Shown here in pieces: positions 2,314 to 37,052 of a stretch of DNA of 45,822 nt. The position numbers were made by a program, and so were the translations under genes. Origin of the DNA: a virus. How positions within the stretch are numbered: the first letter of the stretch is position 1; each line of letters begins with the position of its first letter. Where the stretch lies: positions 1-45,822 of the IMG/VR virus record IMGVR_UViG_3300047388_000181; one strand, given 5' to 3'. The notes beneath the pieces are model-generated. The model searched no databases. It saw only the letters and a program-made list of their open reading frames with translations, and had not been told where the DNA came from.

Positions 2314-3179
2314 GCAAGACAGTTCGTGTCGTAGGGCCAACGGGTGCTAACGGCACCCTTGAACAGGTCTACGTCCTCTCTCAGTTCGCCGGCCCGACTG
2401 GTTTGTTCCCAGTTTGGGTACAGGCCGCAACAGGTGCGACCGGGTTCAAGAATGTCATCGGGGCAGCGCGTCTCGCTATCGACAGTGGGTTCACCGTTCT
2501 CGACCAAACGGACGTCATTCCCGGTGTGCTCTTCGGCGGGGTTACGGCTTACAAAATCCAGGGAACAGCAGCGGCGATTAGCGCGACCCTGACGCGTCCC
2601 GTCCCGCAGAGCGCTACTAAGAATTGCGCCTCTGCGATCGTAAGCTTCAAATCCGCCGCAGCGTGGAAATTGGTGTCTCACGTGGGTGGCGGGGGCGCAT
2701 TCGCACCTGGAGGGACTGATGCCCCCTCGCTCGATACTACTACTGCCGACCTCATCGTGGTCGTTATGACGGGTGGGAGTTTTGTAACCCCCGTCGACAG
2801 TAACGGCAATACTTGGACGCTAGCCAAGCACCAGTCCAGCGGCGGCAACGCCGGTGAGGTATCTATTTGGTATTGCCTAAATCCAACGGTTGGAGCGGGT
2901 CACACATTCACGCTCACCCCGAGTTTCAACACGCACGCCATCTCGGCTTGGAGTGGCTCAGCACCGGGCGGGTTCGACCAACAGAACGGCACGTCTCTAA
3001 TACCGTCTGACGGCGTCACGCTTACGCAGTCGACTGGAAGCATCACTCCGACAGCGGACAACGAGTTGCTCATTGCCGCCTTCGGCCTCAACGATCCGTC
3101 GAATAATCTCACAGGACCTACCGGTCCGAACAGTGAAATCAAAACCGTAATCATCAGCGGCTACTCGGGGCCACGTTAA
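2310..3179 (+). CDS. Virion structural protein, beta-sandwich type
   Basis: This 289-residue protein starts at TTG 2310, overlapping the portal stop (TTGA), with a good ribosome site (GGGAGG, 2298-2303). The alternative is an unlikely later start. It carries short GPTGANG and GPTGPN collagen-like triplets at its two ends. Its central part (about residues 140-235) alternates hydrophobic strands with SNGNTWTLAK, WYCLNP and HTFTLTPSF. That pattern is seen in many phage tail and capsid accessory proteins of unknown role. I infer a beta-sandwich surface or decoration protein. No enzymatic motif is visible. Confidence 0.6.
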   Translation: MSKTVRVVGPTGANGTLEQVYVLSQFAGPTGLFPVWVQAATGATGFKNVIGAARLAIDSGFTVLDQTDVIPGVLFGGVTAYKIQGTAAAISATLTRPVPQSATKNCASAIVSFKSAAAWKLVSHVGGGGAFAPGGTDAPSLDTTTADLIVVVMTGGSFVTPVDSNGNTWTLAKHQSSGGNAGEVSIWYCLNPTVGAGHTFTLTPSFNTHAISAWSGSAPGGFDQQNGTSLIPSDGVTLTQSTGSITPTADNELLIAAFGLNDPSNNLTGPTGPNSEIKTVIISGYSGPR

Positions 3180-4407: not shown

Positions 4408-6378
4408 ATGCTCTGTTTGAATATGATCGTGAAGAACGAGTGTATGCGTATTCTACGTGCGCTTGAAAGTGCTCGCCCTTACATCTCTACGTTTGCTATC
4501 TTCGACACCGGGTCTACCGACGGCACCGATGAAATCATCCGGGAGTGGGGCGAGAAGAACGGTATCCCTGGCATCGTCGCGCACGGCACGTTCATTGACT
4601 TCTCCCAGGCGCGCAACCAAGCGCTCGAACTCGCGCGCAGCTGGCATAAGAACCCCACAGCCGATGTGCCGCCCTTCAGCTACATCCTGCTGATGGACGC
4701 TGACATGGAGCTTGTCGTCGAGGGTAAGCACATGATCGTCGATGGCGCCGGCGAGATGTATGAGATGATCCAGAAGGCTGGAGCGGTCTCATACCACAAC
4801 CCGCGTCTGCTCTCAGTGCACTCCACGGCGACCTACATTGGGGTAACCCATGAATTTCTCAACGTGCCACCCGCCGGTGTCGTATCTGGTGCCCACTTCA
4901 GAGATCACGCCGATGGATCAAATCGCGTGGAGAAGTATGACCGGGACGTTAAGCTCCTGCTCAAGGACTTGGAGACAGACCCGCACAACCCGCGTTCTTG
5001 GTTCTATCTCGGCAACAGTTACCGTGATGGTAACAAGCCCGAGGATGCGATCGACGCTTACCTGATGCGGCTGTCTATTGGCGGCTGGGATGAAGAGGAC
5101 TTCATTACGCGTTGCAACATAGCATGTTGCTACAAGGACCTGAATAATCAGGCGGAGTTCATCCACTGGGCGCTTCTCGCCTATGAGCACCGCCCCACCC
5201 GTGCCGAGAGCCTCTACGATTTGGCGCACTACTTCCGCGAGAAAGGCCGCAACGAACTTGCCGCTGTCTTCGCGGAGATGGGCATCAACATCCCGAAGCC
5301 GAACGACAAGCTGTTCGTCAACGACTACGTCTATGACCACGGCTTCCGCGAGGAGCTGTCGATCGCTGGTTGGTACACCGATCGCCGCGAGAAGGCGTTC
5401 CGCGTCGCCAATGGACTGGCGCTCGACCCCACTGCGCCAGCACATCTACGCCACCAGTCGCGCACCAATATGGTGCACTACCTGCGGCCGCTGAAGCATT
5501 TCTGCCCGACGACCACGATGGTCAAAGTCGACATCCCTACCAGCACCGGCTTTGTCGCGATGAACCCATCGATCGCCAATACGTCGGACGGCGGCATGGA
5601 GATGATCGTACGTACGGTCAACTACAAGATCGACGAGCACGGCCGGTACATGATCGGTGAAAAGGGTTGCGGTGACGCGCCGATTGCCACCGAGAACTGG
5701 CTGATGAAGGTGGACGCCTATCTCGACACCAAATCCCCGCAAGTGATTGTCTGGGATCGCCCCCTGCCGAAGTTCGAGCTGGTGATCGGCCTCGAAGACA
5801 TGCGCCTGTTCTGGCGCGCCGGTCGGCGTCGGTTCAGCGCCTGCGTACGTGAGCAGAGCGACCGCGGCGAGTGCGAGCAGTGGCAAGGTACACTGGATCG
5901 CCGTGACACGCATGTAGTGGTCACCGACGACAAGCGGATCAGCGACGGTACATGTACCGAGAAGAACTGGGCGCCATACGGATACACGGACAAGTACGTC
6001 CACCGCTTGGGCACGCTCATCAGCGAGACCGGCGAGCGCTTCCCCATCCCTTGCCCTTATGCCGCAGAGAACATCAGTGGTTCTAGTCAATGGGTACCCT
6101 TCAGCGGTGGGTATCTCTCGATCGTACACGAGGCGGTCTACCACCCCAACCATGGCAAGCGCGTCTACCAGCACCGGTTTGCGTTCTACGATCTCACGCT
6201 GACGAAGCTAACGCTCTCCCTGCCGTTCGTATTCCAGGATGTGCAGATCGAGTTCTGCGCGGGCCTCGCGTCGATCGGTGGAGACCTCGTCGCCTCGTTT
6301 GGCGTCCGCGACTGTGAGGCGTGGCTGGCCAGGGTCTCTATGCGGGACGTCGCCGCCATGCTGTGGGGGACGAAGTGA
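4408..6378 (+). CDS. GT2 glycosyltransferase - TPR - GH130-like propeller fusion
   Basis: This 656-residue protein has three parts. Residues 1-150 are a family 2 glycosyltransferase (GT-A fold): MIVKNE at 6-11, DTGSTDGT at 33-40 and the metal-binding DAD at 97-99. Residues about 178-330 contain TPR-like helices (SWFYLGNSYRDGNKPEDAI). Residues about 365-650 resemble the five-bladed propeller of GH130 mannoside phosphorylases, with GLEDMRLF where EDPR is usual, plus EKNWAPY and a late FCAGLA/VASFGVRD segment. It presumably transfers a sugar from a nucleotide donor in the cytoplasm. The stop overlaps the next start (TGATG), and AGGAAG is the ribosome site. It is the first gene of a coupled three-gene cassette next to collagen-like genes. 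The propeller may bind glycan rather than cleave it, because the EDPR motif is altered. Confidence 0.8.
   Translation: MLCLNMIVKNECMRILRALESARPYISTFAIFDTGSTDGTDEIIREWGEKNGIPGIVAHGTFIDFSQARNQALELARSWHKNPTADVPPFSYILLMDADMELVVEGKHMIVDGAGEMYEMIQKAGAVSYHNPRLLSVHSTATYIGVTHEFLNVPPAGVVSGAHFRDHADGSNRVEKYDRDVKLLLKDLETDPHNPRSWFYLGNSYRDGNKPEDAIDAYLMRLSIGGWDEEDFITRCNIACCYKDLNNQAEFIHWALLAYEHRPTRAESLYDLAHYFREKGRNELAAVFAEMGINIPKPNDKLFVNDYVYDHGFREELSIAGWYTDRREKAFRVANGLALDPTAPAHLRHQSRTNMVHYLRPLKHFCPTTTMVKVDIPTSTGFVAMNPSIANTSDGGMEMIVRTVNYKIDEHGRYMIGEKGCGDAPIATENWLMKVDAYLDTKSPQVIVWDRPLPKFELVIGLEDMRLFWRAGRRRFSACVREQSDRGECEQWQGTLDRRDTHVVVTDDKRISDGTCTEKNWAPYGYTDKYVHRLGTLISETGERFPIPCPYAAENISGSSQWVPFSGGYLSIVHEAVYHPNHGKRVYQHRFAFYDLTLTKLTLSLPFVFQDVQIEFCAGLASIGGDLVASFGVRDCEAWLARVSMRDVAAMLWGTK
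5019..5033. promoter_or_regulatory. Dispersed palindrome variant (one mismatch)
   Basis: TTACCGTGATGGTAA, inside the GT2-TPR gene, read in the YRDGN frame. One mismatch in the right arm. Confidence 0.4.
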
Positions 6379-7055
6379 TGCGCGCGCGACTAGTAACGGG
6401 CTACATCCCCATCGAAGGCCACCCGCGTACACCCGAAATGTACGGCGCGCTCGGCGAGAAGCTCGGCGGCGTACCGGTACCCAAGGCGGCGTTCTACCAG
6501 CGCGTTGAAGAGACGTGGCTGCGCAAATACGCCAGCTCTCTGCTGTTCCCGCCGAAGATATCGGAGGGTGACAACCCGGCGAAGAACACTCTCGCATATC
6601 ACTGTACCAATCACCAGAAGACCGAATGGCTGTTGAACGCGGTCGAGAAGTATCCGGATGAAGATTGGTATGTATGGGTCGATTACGGGATTTTTTCTCA
6701 GCCGGGCATTTCCAACCAGATCATCTACGAAATGTTCGAACGGCTAATTCAAACGCCGCCGGACAAAATTTATATCCCAGGATGTTGGGACAAGTCGTCG
6801 ATTATCGAGAGCGCTACGCCGTGTTGGCGCTTCTGCGGTTCTATGTTTGCCGTGCCAAAGAAATTTGTCCCGATGCTCCATTACGCCTGCGTAAAGACAG
6901 CGTTCAAGCACGTCCGCGCTACGAACAACATCGAGTGGGAAATTAATACATTAGCCAGGATAGAGAAGCATGAGCGACTGCCATTCCATTGGTACCGAGC
7001 CGACCACAACGGAACACAATTTACCAACTTCCCAACCCTGAAGGAAGTCGCATGA
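6378..7055 (+). CDS. YibB/HtrL-like putative glycosyltransferase
   Basis: I place the start at ATG 6378, overlapping the upstream stop, giving 225 residues; an in-frame upstream start at 6321 would overlap the glycosyltransferase too far. The sequence has the layout of the HtrL/YibB family: an N-terminal YIPIEGHPR segment, a central WYVWVDYGIFSQPG block in the place of the family's W-D motif, a short GSMFAVPKKFV strand-loop and a late WEINTLARIEK segment. YibB-type proteins sit in lipopolysaccharide and capsule loci and are thought to be glycosyltransferases. Lying between a GT2 protein and a methyltransferase, it probably adds a further sugar. It overlaps the next gene by ATGA. The family call is from memory and moderately secure. 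Confidence 0.55.
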   Translation: MRARLVTGYIPIEGHPRTPEMYGALGEKLGGVPVPKAAFYQRVEETWLRKYASSLLFPPKISEGDNPAKNTLAYHCTNHQKTEWLLNAVEKYPDEDWYVWVDYGIFSQPGISNQIIYEMFERLIQTPPDKIYIPGCWDKSSIIESATPCWRFCGSMFAVPKKFVPMLHYACVKTAFKHVRATNNIEWEINTLARIEKHERLPFHWYRADHNGTQFTNFPTLKEVA

Positions 7056-7630
7056 GCCAGCTAGAACAATTCTTCACCCAGTACGGTACCGACAAGGGCA
7101 TCTGGGGCTACACGCCCGCGTACGAGACGCATCTCGGGCCAATCCGTAACGTCACTACCCGCGTGCTGGAGATCGGCATCTGCGGCCACAGGGACATCCC
7201 GAACAACGTCGTCGGCGCGTCGCTGTTCGCGTGGCGCGACTACTTCCCGTTCGCGGAGATATACGGCGTCGACAATGACAGCCGCTTCGTCTTCAACGAC
7301 AAGCCGCGCATCCATACCGCGTTGTGTGACGCATATAGTCAGGTCGAGCTAGGTGGGGCGCTACATACGTGGGGCACGAAGTTCGACTTCATCTGCGACG
7401 ATGCGGTGCACGACCCCGGCCCGCAGATCGAGCTGTGCACGATGCTGTGGCCGTGGCTCAACCCCGGCGGCGTTTACGCCATCGAGGAGGCGTGCCCATA
7501 CAAGTGTCCGAACAACGACCTCTACTCCGTGTGCCGTGCTCTGATGGTGGCGTGCCCCACGTTGGAGAATATCACCGAGTACCAGACACACAAAGATGAG
7601 CGTTTACTCGTATTGACCAAGGCGAAGTGA
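7052..7630 (+). CDS. Class I SAM-dependent methyltransferase
   Basis: This 192-residue protein starts at ATG 7052, overlapping the upstream stop. It begins with YGTDKG, a signature of sugar- and antibiotic-type O-methyltransferases of the class I fold. The SAM-binding glycine motif is VLEIGICG (about residues 33-40), followed by IYGVDND for the ribose-binding acidic residue and FDFICDDAVHDPGPQ, where many family members have DDGSH. The likely reaction is O-methylation of a sugar or similar small acceptor. Position at the end of a coupled glycosyltransferase pair suggests that it caps the glycan. The next structural gene begins 1 bp after its stop, so all four are probably cotranslated. Confidence 0.75.
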   Translation: MSQLEQFFTQYGTDKGIWGYTPAYETHLGPIRNVTTRVLEIGICGHRDIPNNVVGASLFAWRDYFPFAEIYGVDNDSRFVFNDKPRIHTALCDAYSQVELGGALHTWGTKFDFICDDAVHDPGPQIELCTMLWPWLNPGGVYAIEEACPYKCPNNDLYSVCRALMVACPTLENITEYQTHKDERLLVLTKAK

Positions 7631-23161: not shown

Positions 23162-23650
23162 ATGCCAATCCCCAAGCCGAATGAAGACGACCTCGATGCG
23201 AAAATCAGCCAGCAGCTAGCTGAAAAGGATACGAGCGCACGCGAAGCTGCCGCGCTCGAAGAGAAGATGCAGGTCGCGAAGCTCGCCGCTATCGATGCAG
23301 CGAACAAGCAGGCCAAGCAAGCCGAAGAAGAACCTCTGGTATCCGTTGCCGCCCGCGGCCGCGAGTACCTGATGGAGAAGATGCGTGAGCATGCCGAGAA
23401 GGCAAAGAAGGCGGAATACGTGCCGCCCCCGATGACTGACAGGATGCGAGCGAACATCAACGCCGAGATGGAAGCCGGACGCCGGGCGCAAGCCAAGCAC
23501 GAGGCCCAACAGGCGTCACGGCCCGTCCCGGTGAAAGAGAAGTGGGACGGCAGCAACACGAAGGTATTTCGGCCGGGTGATGTCGTACCCGATCCGATGG
23601 CAAGCGGTGCGAACCAGTTCGCTGGAGTGCCACCAACGTACGACAAGTGA
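23162..23650 (+). CDS. Charged coiled-coil protein of unknown function
   Basis: I chose ATG 23162 (162 residues) because AGGAG (23151-23155) lies seven bases before it; ATG 23114 is an alternative. Residues about 8-100 are highly charged and helical (KISQQLAEKDTSAREAAALEEKMQ, then REYLMEKMREHAEKAKKAE), suggesting a long coiled coil. The C-terminal 40 residues are disordered (VPVKEKWDGSNTKVFRPGD). I recognise no family. It sits between the lysis genes and the endonuclease VII/tail genes and may be a virion protein. Confidence 0.55.
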   Translation: MPIPKPNEDDLDAKISQQLAEKDTSAREAAALEEKMQVAKLAAIDAANKQAKQAEEEPLVSVAARGREYLMEKMREHAEKAKKAEYVPPPMTDRMRANINAEMEAGRRAQAKHEAQQASRPVPVKEKWDGSNTKVFRPGDVVPDPMASGANQFAGVPPTYDK

Positions 23651-23651
23651 C

Positions 23652-24092
23652 ATGACTGAAGACGAGCGTACATACCAACGAGAATACGCGCGCACCGAGA
23701 AACGGAAAGCGGTGCGCCGTAGATACAATCAGTCGGAAAAGGGCAAAGCAAACAACAACGCCCAATGCAAACGGTGGCGCGAGCAGAATAGAGACAAGTA
23801 CCTCGCGTCGCTAAAAAAGGCTGATCTGAAGCGCCACTATGGGCTGACCCAAGAACAGTGGAATAAACTGTTTACGGATCAGGGGTCTAAATGCGCTGCC
23901 TGCAGGTCTACGGACCCAAAGGTGAAAACCGGTAAGTGGTCGACTGATCACTGCCACACGACAGGTAAAGTCCGAGGCATTCTCTGCAACGGATGCAACA
24001 CGGCGCTGGGGCATGCAGAAGATAAGCCTGCTACCCTGCGGGCACTGGCGAGCTATCTAGAGGGGGGGTTAACTTGGGATCGTTCAAGTTAG
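23652..24092 (+). CDS. Recombination endonuclease VII-like nuclease
   Basis: This 146-residue protein starts at ATG 23652 just after the previous stop. The N-terminal 60 residues are basic and helical (YARTEKRKAVRRRYNQSEKGK). The core carries the zinc and catalytic features of the endonuclease VII/HNH (beta-beta-alpha metal) family: CAAC at 81-84, DHCH at 99-102 and CNGC at 112-115, preceded by HYGLTQEQWNKLF. T4 endonuclease VII resolves branched DNA before packaging; free-standing relatives often behave as mobile (homing) genes. Here it interrupts the virion gene order and overlaps the apparent start of the large tail gene, so mobility is plausible. Confidence 0.85.
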   Translation: MTEDERTYQREYARTEKRKAVRRRYNQSEKGKANNNAQCKRWREQNRDKYLASLKKADLKRHYGLTQEQWNKLFTDQGSKCAACRSTDPKVKTGKWSTDHCHTTGKVRGILCNGCNTALGHAEDKPATLRALASYLEGGLTWDRSS

Positions 24093-26753
24093 AGCAATTT
24101 CGGCGGTAGTTTACCTGCCTGGGACGCTCATCTATTACCTGCGGGGCAGGCTTCGGACGCGCTGAACACGTACCTCTTTTCGGGTGCGATGATCGGTTGG
24201 CGCGTGCCGAAGCTGCTGCGCACGTTGCTGAACTCGGCTGCGAAGAAGGTCTATCGCGTCCCGACCATCACCCAAAGCGTCGCGGTAGCGTACTTCCTAT
24301 TCAAGCTCAACCCGATCGAGGGCGACACTGTCCGCATTGGCGAGGAGACCTACGAGTTTACCGCCACGGTAACGGACGCATATGACGTGTTGCTGGGCGG
24401 TAACGCAACTACGACAGCGGACAACTTTTTCAAAGCGCTGACCACGACCGGCACGAACGGAGTGACCTATGGTGTTGGTACTGTCGCCAACCCGGCGATC
24501 GACACGACCGATAGCGCGCGCAATACAGCGACTATTGGCGCTACGACCTATCAAGCGATCAAGACGTTGGCGCCGGACTTCGGTGCGGTATATAATACGA
24601 CTAAAGTCGCTGAGAGCACGGGTAACGTACGCACGACATGGCTATTTGACCCGTCGTCCCTAGCGAACACCACGACCACGTTCACTGGTGGCACCAACCA
24701 GTCGTTCGATAATCGGATCACCGGTATTGCGACATGGCTGGAGTTCGAGGATCAGTTCACCGACATCATGCGCTCGCCCGTGGTCGACGACCAGTTCGGG
24801 CGCTACTATTTCGCCAGTCCCTCACTGTCGCCGCAGTACAACACCTACGATCGCATCGTGGCGGGTCAGGCCCCCTGGTTGCTTGGCGTGCCCGCACCGG
24901 GCTGTAACCCCGGTGTCATCGTTACCGGAGGCGGTAATCTCGCGCAGATAGGCAACGTAACCGCCGCGGCGGGGGCCGGCGCCAGCACACCGGGCGGCAA
25001 TACCATCGCCCTGATCAAGATCACCCCAACAGGGGCGATGACGCTCAACGACATCACTTTCGTGCCGCGGTCTACGGTCCCAACCGCGAATTTCACTGCG
25101 GTGCTCTACGACGACAACGTCGGTTCGCCGTTCGAGATAGTCAACGAGGGGGTACAGATCACTGGCTGTGTCGCCGGTTCGGCGGTCACGAGCGGGTTCA
25201 CCAATCCAACCGGCTTGCTGGCCAATGTGCCGTACTGGATCGGCTTCATGATGGATACCCCCGTCGCGTTCCAGTTGGCCGATGCCACACTGCCGGGTGT
25301 CGTGGTGTCCAACACGTATAGCAACGGACCACCGCCGTTTATCAGTAGCGCTACCGGCGGACAGCCGAATTGGCAGATATTCGGCAACCTCACTACGTCG
25401 AGCATCATCGAGGCGCGCTCCTACACCTACACCTGGGTGAGCGCGTACGGCGAGGAGGGTGCACCCGCTCCACCCACGCTCGTGAACGGGTGGTCTAACG
25501 GGACATGGACGATCAGCATGTTCACGCCGGCGCTCGACGATCTGGGCATCGAACGGAACATCAAGACTGTGCGGATATATCGTACCGTCCCCGACACCTC
25601 GGGCGGCGCGTCGTATTACTTCGTTGCCGAGCAGGACGTCAACCTCGCTACCTACGTCGACAACATCTCTGACGATGTCGTCGCGCTTAATATTCTACTC
25701 CCCAGCGGAGCGTGGTTTCCCCCTCCTGCGGGGTTGCAAGCGATGCTCTCGATGCCGAATGGTATGGCAGTGGGCTTCAAGGGCAACGAGCTGTGGTTCG
25801 CCGAGCCGTATCATCCGCACGCGTGGCCGCCCGGCTACGTGCTGACGACGGAATTCCCCATCGTCGGTATCGGTGTCAGTGGCAACTCGGTGATCGCGGC
25901 GACATCAGGCACGCCCTACATCGCCAGCGGCGTTGCGCCCGGCTCGATGGTGCTGACGAAAGCGATCAGCCCGGAGCCGTGCAACTCGCGCGGGTCAGTG
26001 CTCGCGACGGACTACGGTGTGTTCTACGTCTCCCCGAATGGCTTGGTGATGGTATCGCCCTCCACTGGCGCAGCCGAGAACGTGACCGGGTCCTGGGTGA
26101 CACGCGAGAAGTGGCAGGCCCTCGTGCCGCAGTCCAACCTCACCGCTATTCAGCTGGCAGCGACTTACTTCGCCTTCCAGACGGATGCGCAGACCGGCTT
26201 CACGGTTGAACTCGCCAACGACAGCGAGAGCTTCACGATCTGGCCTCAGCCCGGCGGCCATCGCATCGGCTTCAACCGCATGTCATCGCCGCTTCTGACC
26301 GACGTGGACAACATCCAGACCGACCCGTGGACCGGCATCGGGATGATGATCGCTAACGGGAACGTCTATTACTACGACTTCTCGGATCAGGCGCCGACTA
26401 TCCAGCCGTGCACGTGGCGCTCCAAAATACTTCAGCAGAGCGAGAAGAAGAACTTCGAGGCCATCAAAGTCTACTTCACCGTGCCGCCTAACACGCCGGC
26501 GCAGAACGCTGTCCGCAACACGGCGGACACCCTGGACCCCAGCTGGAATACGCTGGATACAGGGCAGTACGGCATCCTCCGGGTGTACGCCGATGGTGTG
26601 CTGGTGACCACGCGCGAGATCGTCAAGAGCGGCGAGTTGCTACGCGTGCTGTCAGGGTTCATGGCGGAGGAGTGGCAGTTCGAGATCACCACGCGCGTCC
26701 TGATATCGAACATACAAGTCGGCACGAGTGTGAAGGAGCTGGCCAGTGTCTAA
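24074..26753 (+). CDS. Large tail (tubular/nozzle-type) protein, apparent +1 frameshift near start
   Basis: From the in-frame ATG 24189 this gene gives 854 residues. However, the same frame is already open from 24093 and encodes FGGSLPAWDAHLLPAGQASDALNTYLFSGA, which is the expected N-terminal block of these tail proteins and has no start codon. The missing first residues (GSFKLEQF) lie in the overlapping frame from TTG 24074, behind an A-G7 ribosome site (24061-24068). The two parts join by a +1 shift at TTT_CGG (24098-24103), giving about 892 residues. The body is beta-rich, with YTYTWVSAYGEEGAPAP and GNELWFAEPYHPHAWPPGY typical of podovirus tail-tube or hub proteins. A 1-nt sequencing error in the TTT run would also explain it. 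Confidence 0.75.
24358..24372. promoter_or_regulatory. Dispersed palindrome, perfect arms
   Basis: TTACCGCCACGGTAA in the large tail gene, encoding part of FTATVT. A related copy with a 4-base spacer (TTACCGGAGGCGGTAA) lies at 24922. Confidence 0.65.
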
Positions 26754-36703: not shown

Positions 36704-36925
36704 ATGAAGGCGAAGCATATGCCATTCAAGAAGGTAGGAACTGACGACTATACCAGCCCCTCGGGGCGTCATTTCAACGGAGCCCAGGTCCGGCTCTATC
36801 ACGCAAACGGGGACAAGTTCCCCGGCCAAAAAAAGTCGGAGAAACCGAATGTCGGAATACGCAAAGGGCGAGAAGCCGAGAAATCTGGACGCGGCGTGCG
36901 GCGGCCCAACTCTGGAACGCGTTAG
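36704..36925 (+). CDS. Small conserved-type phage protein
   Basis: This 73-residue protein contains MPFKKVGTDDYTSPSGRHFNGAQVRLYHANGDKFPGQ, a pattern I recall from small proteins at the end of phage structural operons. Translation could begin at ATG 36704 or at ATG 36719 (MPFKK). The last 25 residues are basic and overlap the next gene in another frame, so the conserved part probably ends near KFPGQKK. Function unknown. Confidence 0.6.
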   Translation: MKAKHMPFKKVGTDDYTSPSGRHFNGAQVRLYHANGDKFPGQKKSEKPNVGIRKGREAEKSGRGVRRPNSGTR

Positions 36926-37052
36926 GAGCTTCCTGAAGGACGAAAAGTGCGGGATGCTCGGACCGCCGAACGACCAGGATTACTCGTCCAAGGGATCGCC
37001 GGCGAAGCGCACGGGCGACAAGTCCCTGCCGGACATCAAGCCGAAAAAATAA
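36849..37052 (+). CDS. Small hydrophilic phage protein
   Basis: This 67-residue frame (MSEYAKGEKPRNLDAACGGPTLERVRSFLKDEKCG...) overlaps the preceding gene by 77 bp. Its pattern, a GGPTLERV-x-FLK segment and a Lys-rich end (DKSLPDIKPKK), resembles small proteins I recall from other phages in the same place. An SD-like GGAGAAA lies before the ATG. A perfect palindrome begins directly after its TAA. Function unknown. Confidence 0.5.
   Translation: MSEYAKGEKPRNLDAACGGPTLERVRSFLKDEKCGMLGPPNDQDYSSKGSPAKRTGDKSLPDIKPKK

Follow-up and report, generated by a model that had tools for sequence, protein, structure and literature searches.

The window, that is, the whole stretch of DNA analyzed here, comprises the 45,822 bases of an IMG/VR virus record and derives from a tailed phage, a distant relative of the Bcep22-like Burkholderia phages. 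Its large tail gene is preceded by a gene encoding an endonuclease VII-like HNH protein of 146 residues (23652..24092; Pfam Endonuclease_7, E 6.6e-24; PHROG 2914/2633), and all features of this locus lie on the plus strand. The HNH gene is inserted between an upstream gene, which ends at 23650, and the tail gene, with which it shares a 19-nt overlap at its 3′ end. Most relatives have no HNH gene at the 5′ side of the tail gene, and the protein encoded in the window is probably a free-standing homing endonuclease. The body of the tail protein, which begins GGSLPAWD, occupies 24102..26753 and was assigned to PHROG 511 over 24189-26753. The profile of the relatives of this protein matched 8jov_A (E 2.5e-72), chain A in the phage GP4 portal-tail complex, and a fold search with the predicted structure, a moderate model with a pLDDT of 70, gave matches that included the tail proteins of P22, Sf6, and T7, suggesting that the protein is probably the tail nozzle.

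The 5′ part of the tail gene (24074..24100) lies in a different frame from the body. It starts at TTG 24074, 5 nt downstream of a G-run at 24062..24068 that is presumed to be the ribosome binding site, and encodes (M)GSFKLEQF, which matches the MPAFKLEQF and MGAIKLEQF of relatives. Read in a single frame, the gene runs TTG (24074) GGA TCG TTC AAG TTA GAG CAA TTT (24098-24100) CGG CGG and then stops at TAG (24107). The body frame, which reads GGSLPAWDAHLLPAGQ from GGC 24102, is limited upstream by the TAG at 24090-24092 and contains no ATG, GTG, or TTG before ATG 24189..24191. This first in-frame start is absent from most relatives, and a tail protein that began there would lose 38 conserved N-terminal residues. 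A single extra base at TTTC divides the GSFKLEQF frame from the GGSLPAWD frame; when TTTC is taken as one step, the joined product is LGSFKLEQFGGSLPAWD. The seam, UUU CGG CGG UAG (24098..24109), where relatives have one base fewer, is the proposed site of a +1 shift from UUU to UUC, and the 2.6 kb of the gene beyond it show no other damage. A previous sequence-only reading had placed the N terminus and body in different frames, with a +1 step needed at UUU_C (24098-24101) and a start at TTG 24074 behind a G-rich site, and the sequence, the frames, and the shared N terminus of relatives bear this out. The TAG that it noted ahead of the startless body frame proves to be the stop codon of the endonuclease VII gene, which it had left unnamed. 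The one-base frame break is confirmed as a real feature of the sequence. Within the window, TTT_CGN occurs in frame four times, against approximately three expected from codon use; one of the four, a TTT_CGG, lies in the gene just upstream and is read normally. No stimulator of the stem-loop or Shine-Dalgarno kind was found at the seam of the window, where predicted folds gave z scores of 0.1 and 0.3 and no Shine-Dalgarno-like sequence lies 3 nt 5′ of UUU.

Tail-gene loci were gathered by scanning IMG/VR and their 5′ ends were read, which yielded 94 distinct 5′ ends. In nearly all of these relatives, the first codons of the tail gene are unbroken, mostly with TTC or TTT followed by GGN GGN, and in a more distant subfamily, which was scanned as well, every tail gene returned was uninterrupted and lacked an HNH gene. 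Isolated phages with this N terminus were matched as single pieces, and in Rhizobium phage RHph_TM3_14A, the one inspected closely, it lies inside one uninterrupted annotated gene; no isolate with a lesion of this kind was found in the phage collection, and no relatives were found in the bacterial genomes of GTDB. Among uninterrupted copies, the segment that begins at GG and closes with LLPxGQ is constant in length and holds no sense inserts; in this count, three deviant rows are due to another GG within the peptide, and three others were uncountable by the script. The sequence-only reading had proposed a programmed shift and named uninterrupted relatives as evidence against it; by that standard, the approximately 80 relatives that are uninterrupted here (TTY GGN GGN or equivalent) refute a shift programmed across the family. 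The putative UUU_CGG site does not characterize the family as a whole and is common to two phages only: CAR TTT CGG CGG recurs letter for letter in one relative, L192, and is absent elsewhere. A zero-frame stop two codons past the seam, also noted previously, holds for the window but not for L192, in which the stop lies ∼20 codons on.

Seven lineages are broken within the first ∼20 codons of the tail gene. In all seven, the tail body remains open for 731-1131 codons. The residues that flank the lesions on both sides are those of the family consensus. L192 carries CAG TTT CGG CGG and, like the window, needs a +1 step; its HNH gene is 48% identical to that of the window and its tail body approximately half identical, and both halves of the tail gene around the seam are conserved. 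Four other lesions are in-frame 6-nt inserts, and all four contain TAG. The stop codon lies between identical codons in L016 (GGC ATG TTG TAG TTG CCC; UUG-UAG-UUG) and L137 (GGG ATG CTT TAG CTT CCC; CUU-UAG-CUU) and between synonymous codons in L013 (GAC CCG TAG CCA CAA; CCG-UAG-CCA), whereas in L184 (CAT TAG CTC) there is no matched landing codon. The probability that at least three of four stops would lie between synonymous codons by chance is ∼0.001. In terms of layout, a predicted hop over the stop in L016, L137, and L013 would give a product of the same length as the uninterrupted protein, and the exact fixed segment length would likewise be regained by a +1 step in the window and L192. 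The seventh lesion, in L189, is a 44-nt insert before FGG with a 13-bp hairpin and a GUAA loop (−21.8 kcal/mol, z −4.8); the start codon of this gene is altered too. L184 is a sister of L189 (81% identical in the tail body) and has no HNH gene, but it keeps a stretch that resembles the 3′ end of the HNH gene of L013, and none of 1000 shuffles was as similar.

Lesions in the first ∼20 codons were present in 6 of the 12 5′ ends that bear an HNH gene, one of these genes being truncated, and in 1 of the 82 that do not (Fisher p = 7.5e-6, in a test that counts related phages as independent). The sole lesion without an HNH gene is that of L184, with its HNH relic; when L184 is moved to the HNH group, the counts become 7/13 and 0/81 (1.7e-7, from our own count of combinations). 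The break in the tail gene is not random and goes together with an HNH gene or with what remains of one. The adjoining homing endonuclease, missed in the sequence-only reading, gives a reason for the position of the break. Six HNH-bearing relatives have an intact tail gene; among them is L156, which carries the HNH gene most similar to that of the window (59-65%). In L198, the HNH gene ahead of an intact tail gene is truncated (∼2850-3000), which is likely a stage of endonuclease loss. Pairwise identity among the HNH genes at this locus is 33-59%. In L016 and L134, the tail bodies are 94% identical and the HNH genes differ (41%). Because the HNH genes have diverged and nearly identical tail genes are accompanied by different ones, the arrivals of these genes were largely independent.

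Breaks in conserved genes were sought in the window and 15 relatives (16 contigs, ∼0.97 Mb) with non-overlapping ORFs as queries. The screen requires aligned residues on both sides of a break, and the frame-shifting lesions close to the start codon in the window, L192, and L189 were found by reading. The tail-gene lesions of L016, L013, L137, and L184 were each backed by nine or more other genomes. Only two other events had the support of at least five genomes, which sets the seven breaks in the tail gene above chance. One is a frame break, with five genomes in support, in a conserved 678-residue protein of contig G011 (∼51,940, minus strand; piece L225), in which the only HNH match found lies ∼20 kb away. 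The other, likewise backed by nine or more genomes, is an insert in the major capsid gene of G016; this gene is interrupted in both G016 and G003 (L244 3582-6085 and L247 7994-10387), with Rfam matches to group I introns, two in L244 and one in L247, and in G016 it holds an additional short insert that places a TGA in frame behind EIW. No group I intron was matched in Rfam at the tail seam of the window or of L013, L016, L137, L184, L189, and L192, and no upstream 5′ exon is present. The screen of conserved genes flagged no disruption beside the other HNH genes of these contigs; the 64-kb contig of L016 (G006) has six endonuclease VII-like genes. A contig generally rich in indels can be dismissed for the window, in which the screen was negative save for a small gene near 36.84 kb. 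This gene (36719-37050), a single frame in four relatives, is divided in the window into two overlapping frames close to seven consecutive A; in G005 its second half is found by itself, with a separate start. Elsewhere in the window, 6321-7630 holds two genes that are also separate in several relatives and form a single fused frame in G007.

Taken together, these observations suggest that ribosomal recoding probably operates at the tail gene of the window. The likely setting is one in which homing endonucleases arrived independently and a small insert, located within or close to the presumed cleavage site, is neutralized by recoding, as in the mobA/gene 60 pair of phage T4. In the proposed sequence of events, a free-standing HNH homing endonuclease gene of the endonuclease VII type would enter directly ahead of the essential tail nozzle gene, accompanied by one inserted base in codon 9 of the tail gene, probably in or near the recognition site. 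By analogy with T4, an insert in the cleavage site would shield the genome that carries the HNH gene, so that the endonuclease gene persists. Peptidyl-tRNA-Phe would then move from UUU to UUC (+1) and translation would continue through GGC GGU AGU. Other phages of the group would have followed the same course independently with other inserts, namely those of 6 nt that place UAG between a pair of synonymous codons in a stop-hop layout and, in one case, the hairpin insert of 44 nt. The message would be repaired by ribosomes at some cost, and modest recoding efficiency might be enough given that few nozzle copies are expected per virion.

The main rival to recoding is a defective or N-terminally truncated tail protein. 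In one form of this explanation, which we consider unlikely, the lesions are scars of endonuclease action without recoding, and the tail protein starts downstream, or is made as two pieces (a short N-terminal peptide and a re-initiated body), and works without its first 9-38 residues. Several lesions offer a place for such a start, namely the TTG closely behind the TAG in L016 and L184, the ATG after the seam in L192, and ATG 24189 in the window, and the 3-nt duplication around the stop could come from the repair of a staggered break alone. However, simple restarting fails for the window, L137, and L013, because no start codon lies close behind the lesion, and no second copy of the tail N terminus was found in the contigs screened. 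The family-consensus residues on both sides of the lesions and the constant segment length among uninterrupted copies also speak against this explanation. Functionless inserts should often be sense codons, and scars alone would not predict the finding of TAG in all four 6-nt inserts, with no sense insert seen. A loss-of-function mutation that arose recently in a defective genome, with no tie to recoding, would account for the single inserted base of the window. Its seam is repeated in L192, however, five further lineages are broken at the same place, all with an HNH gene or relic, and the remainder of the gene is undamaged, which makes this explanation improbable.

An error of sequencing or assembly at 24098-24101 is suggested by a difference of just one base but is highly improbable: a run of three T is an atypical error site, hardly any other breaks in conserved genes emerged from the screen, and the seam recurs in the unrelated sample that yielded L192. 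Decoding of TAG as an amino acid can be all but dismissed. This reading draws on the presence of TAG in four lesions but leaves those of the window, L192, and L189 unexplained, and it would lengthen the fixed-length segment by two residues. Neither in the window nor in the contigs of L013, L016, L137, L184, L189, and L192 did ARAGORN report a tRNA with a CUA anticodon, and genome-wide recoding of TAG is discounted by its use as the terminator of 7 of the 39 genes of the window. G006 has two tandem odd tRNA genes, to which ARAGORN assigned no anticodon and which look like tRNA-Glu.

In its most general form, the recoding interpretation holds that endonuclease VII-type homing endonucleases repeatedly settle at the tail gene together with tiny recoding inserts (a +1 site, a UAG stop-hop, or a hairpin bypass), that recoding serves as immunity toward a mobile element, and that the set includes the first natural in-frame stop-hops. 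This generalization could equally well prove right or wrong. Relative to the sequence-only reading, the finding is stronger as a repeated pattern linked to endonucleases and weaker as a UUU_CGG site. If the interpretation is true, the locus would allow a direct test of whether recoding inserts protect mobile endonucleases and would offer a set of short sites for comparison of efficiency. It would also carry a warning that annotation of such genes begins at the wrong codon.

For decades, T4 gene 60 has stood nearly alone among phages as a gene with a bypassed insert beside a homing endonuclease, and seven phage lineages with several kinds of insert at one spot would turn this oddity into a repeated evolutionary experiment. 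The primary paper on the T4 cassette is reportedly that of Bonocora and colleagues from 2011. In T4, a 50-nt insert beside the HNH gene mobA is bypassed and may serve as protection from the nuclease (PMC5009743, PMC3014915). The present locus resembles that pair in that an HNH gene directly adjoins a conserved gene, a small insert lies near the 5′ end of that gene, the insert of L189 forms a hairpin, and the insert is missing where the endonuclease is missing, save in one of the 82 HNH-minus relatives (L184, with its HNH relic). It differs in the endonuclease VII type of the HNH protein, the tail nozzle gene as the target, the several origins, and the size of the inserts, most of which have 1 or 6 nt instead of 50, and recoding here is predicted from sequence.

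The putative shift site of the window has two parallels. Influenza PA-X shares UUU followed by CGN (UUU_CGU) and the +1 direction, but it involves a eukaryotic ribosome, very low efficiency, and an extra product, whereas in the window the main product would depend on the shift and reading in the zero frame would yield a dead-end peptide. A +1 shift at UUU also occurs in fseA of rhizobial ICEs (PMC5009743), homologues of which are found across proteobacteria (PMC10359603). The likeness lies in a +1 shift at UUU in proteobacteria; the programmed site of FseA is conserved across thousands of homologues, in contrast to that of the window, which occurs in two phages only. As of 2016, no natural in-frame stop-hop was known (PMC5009743). 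Synthetic stop-hops in Escherichia coli, in which matched codons surround a stop and 9 nt are read as one residue (PMC5009743), have the layout of L016, L137, and, with synonymous codons, L013. These three differ from the synthetic constructs in being natural sequences, in which the hop is predicted.
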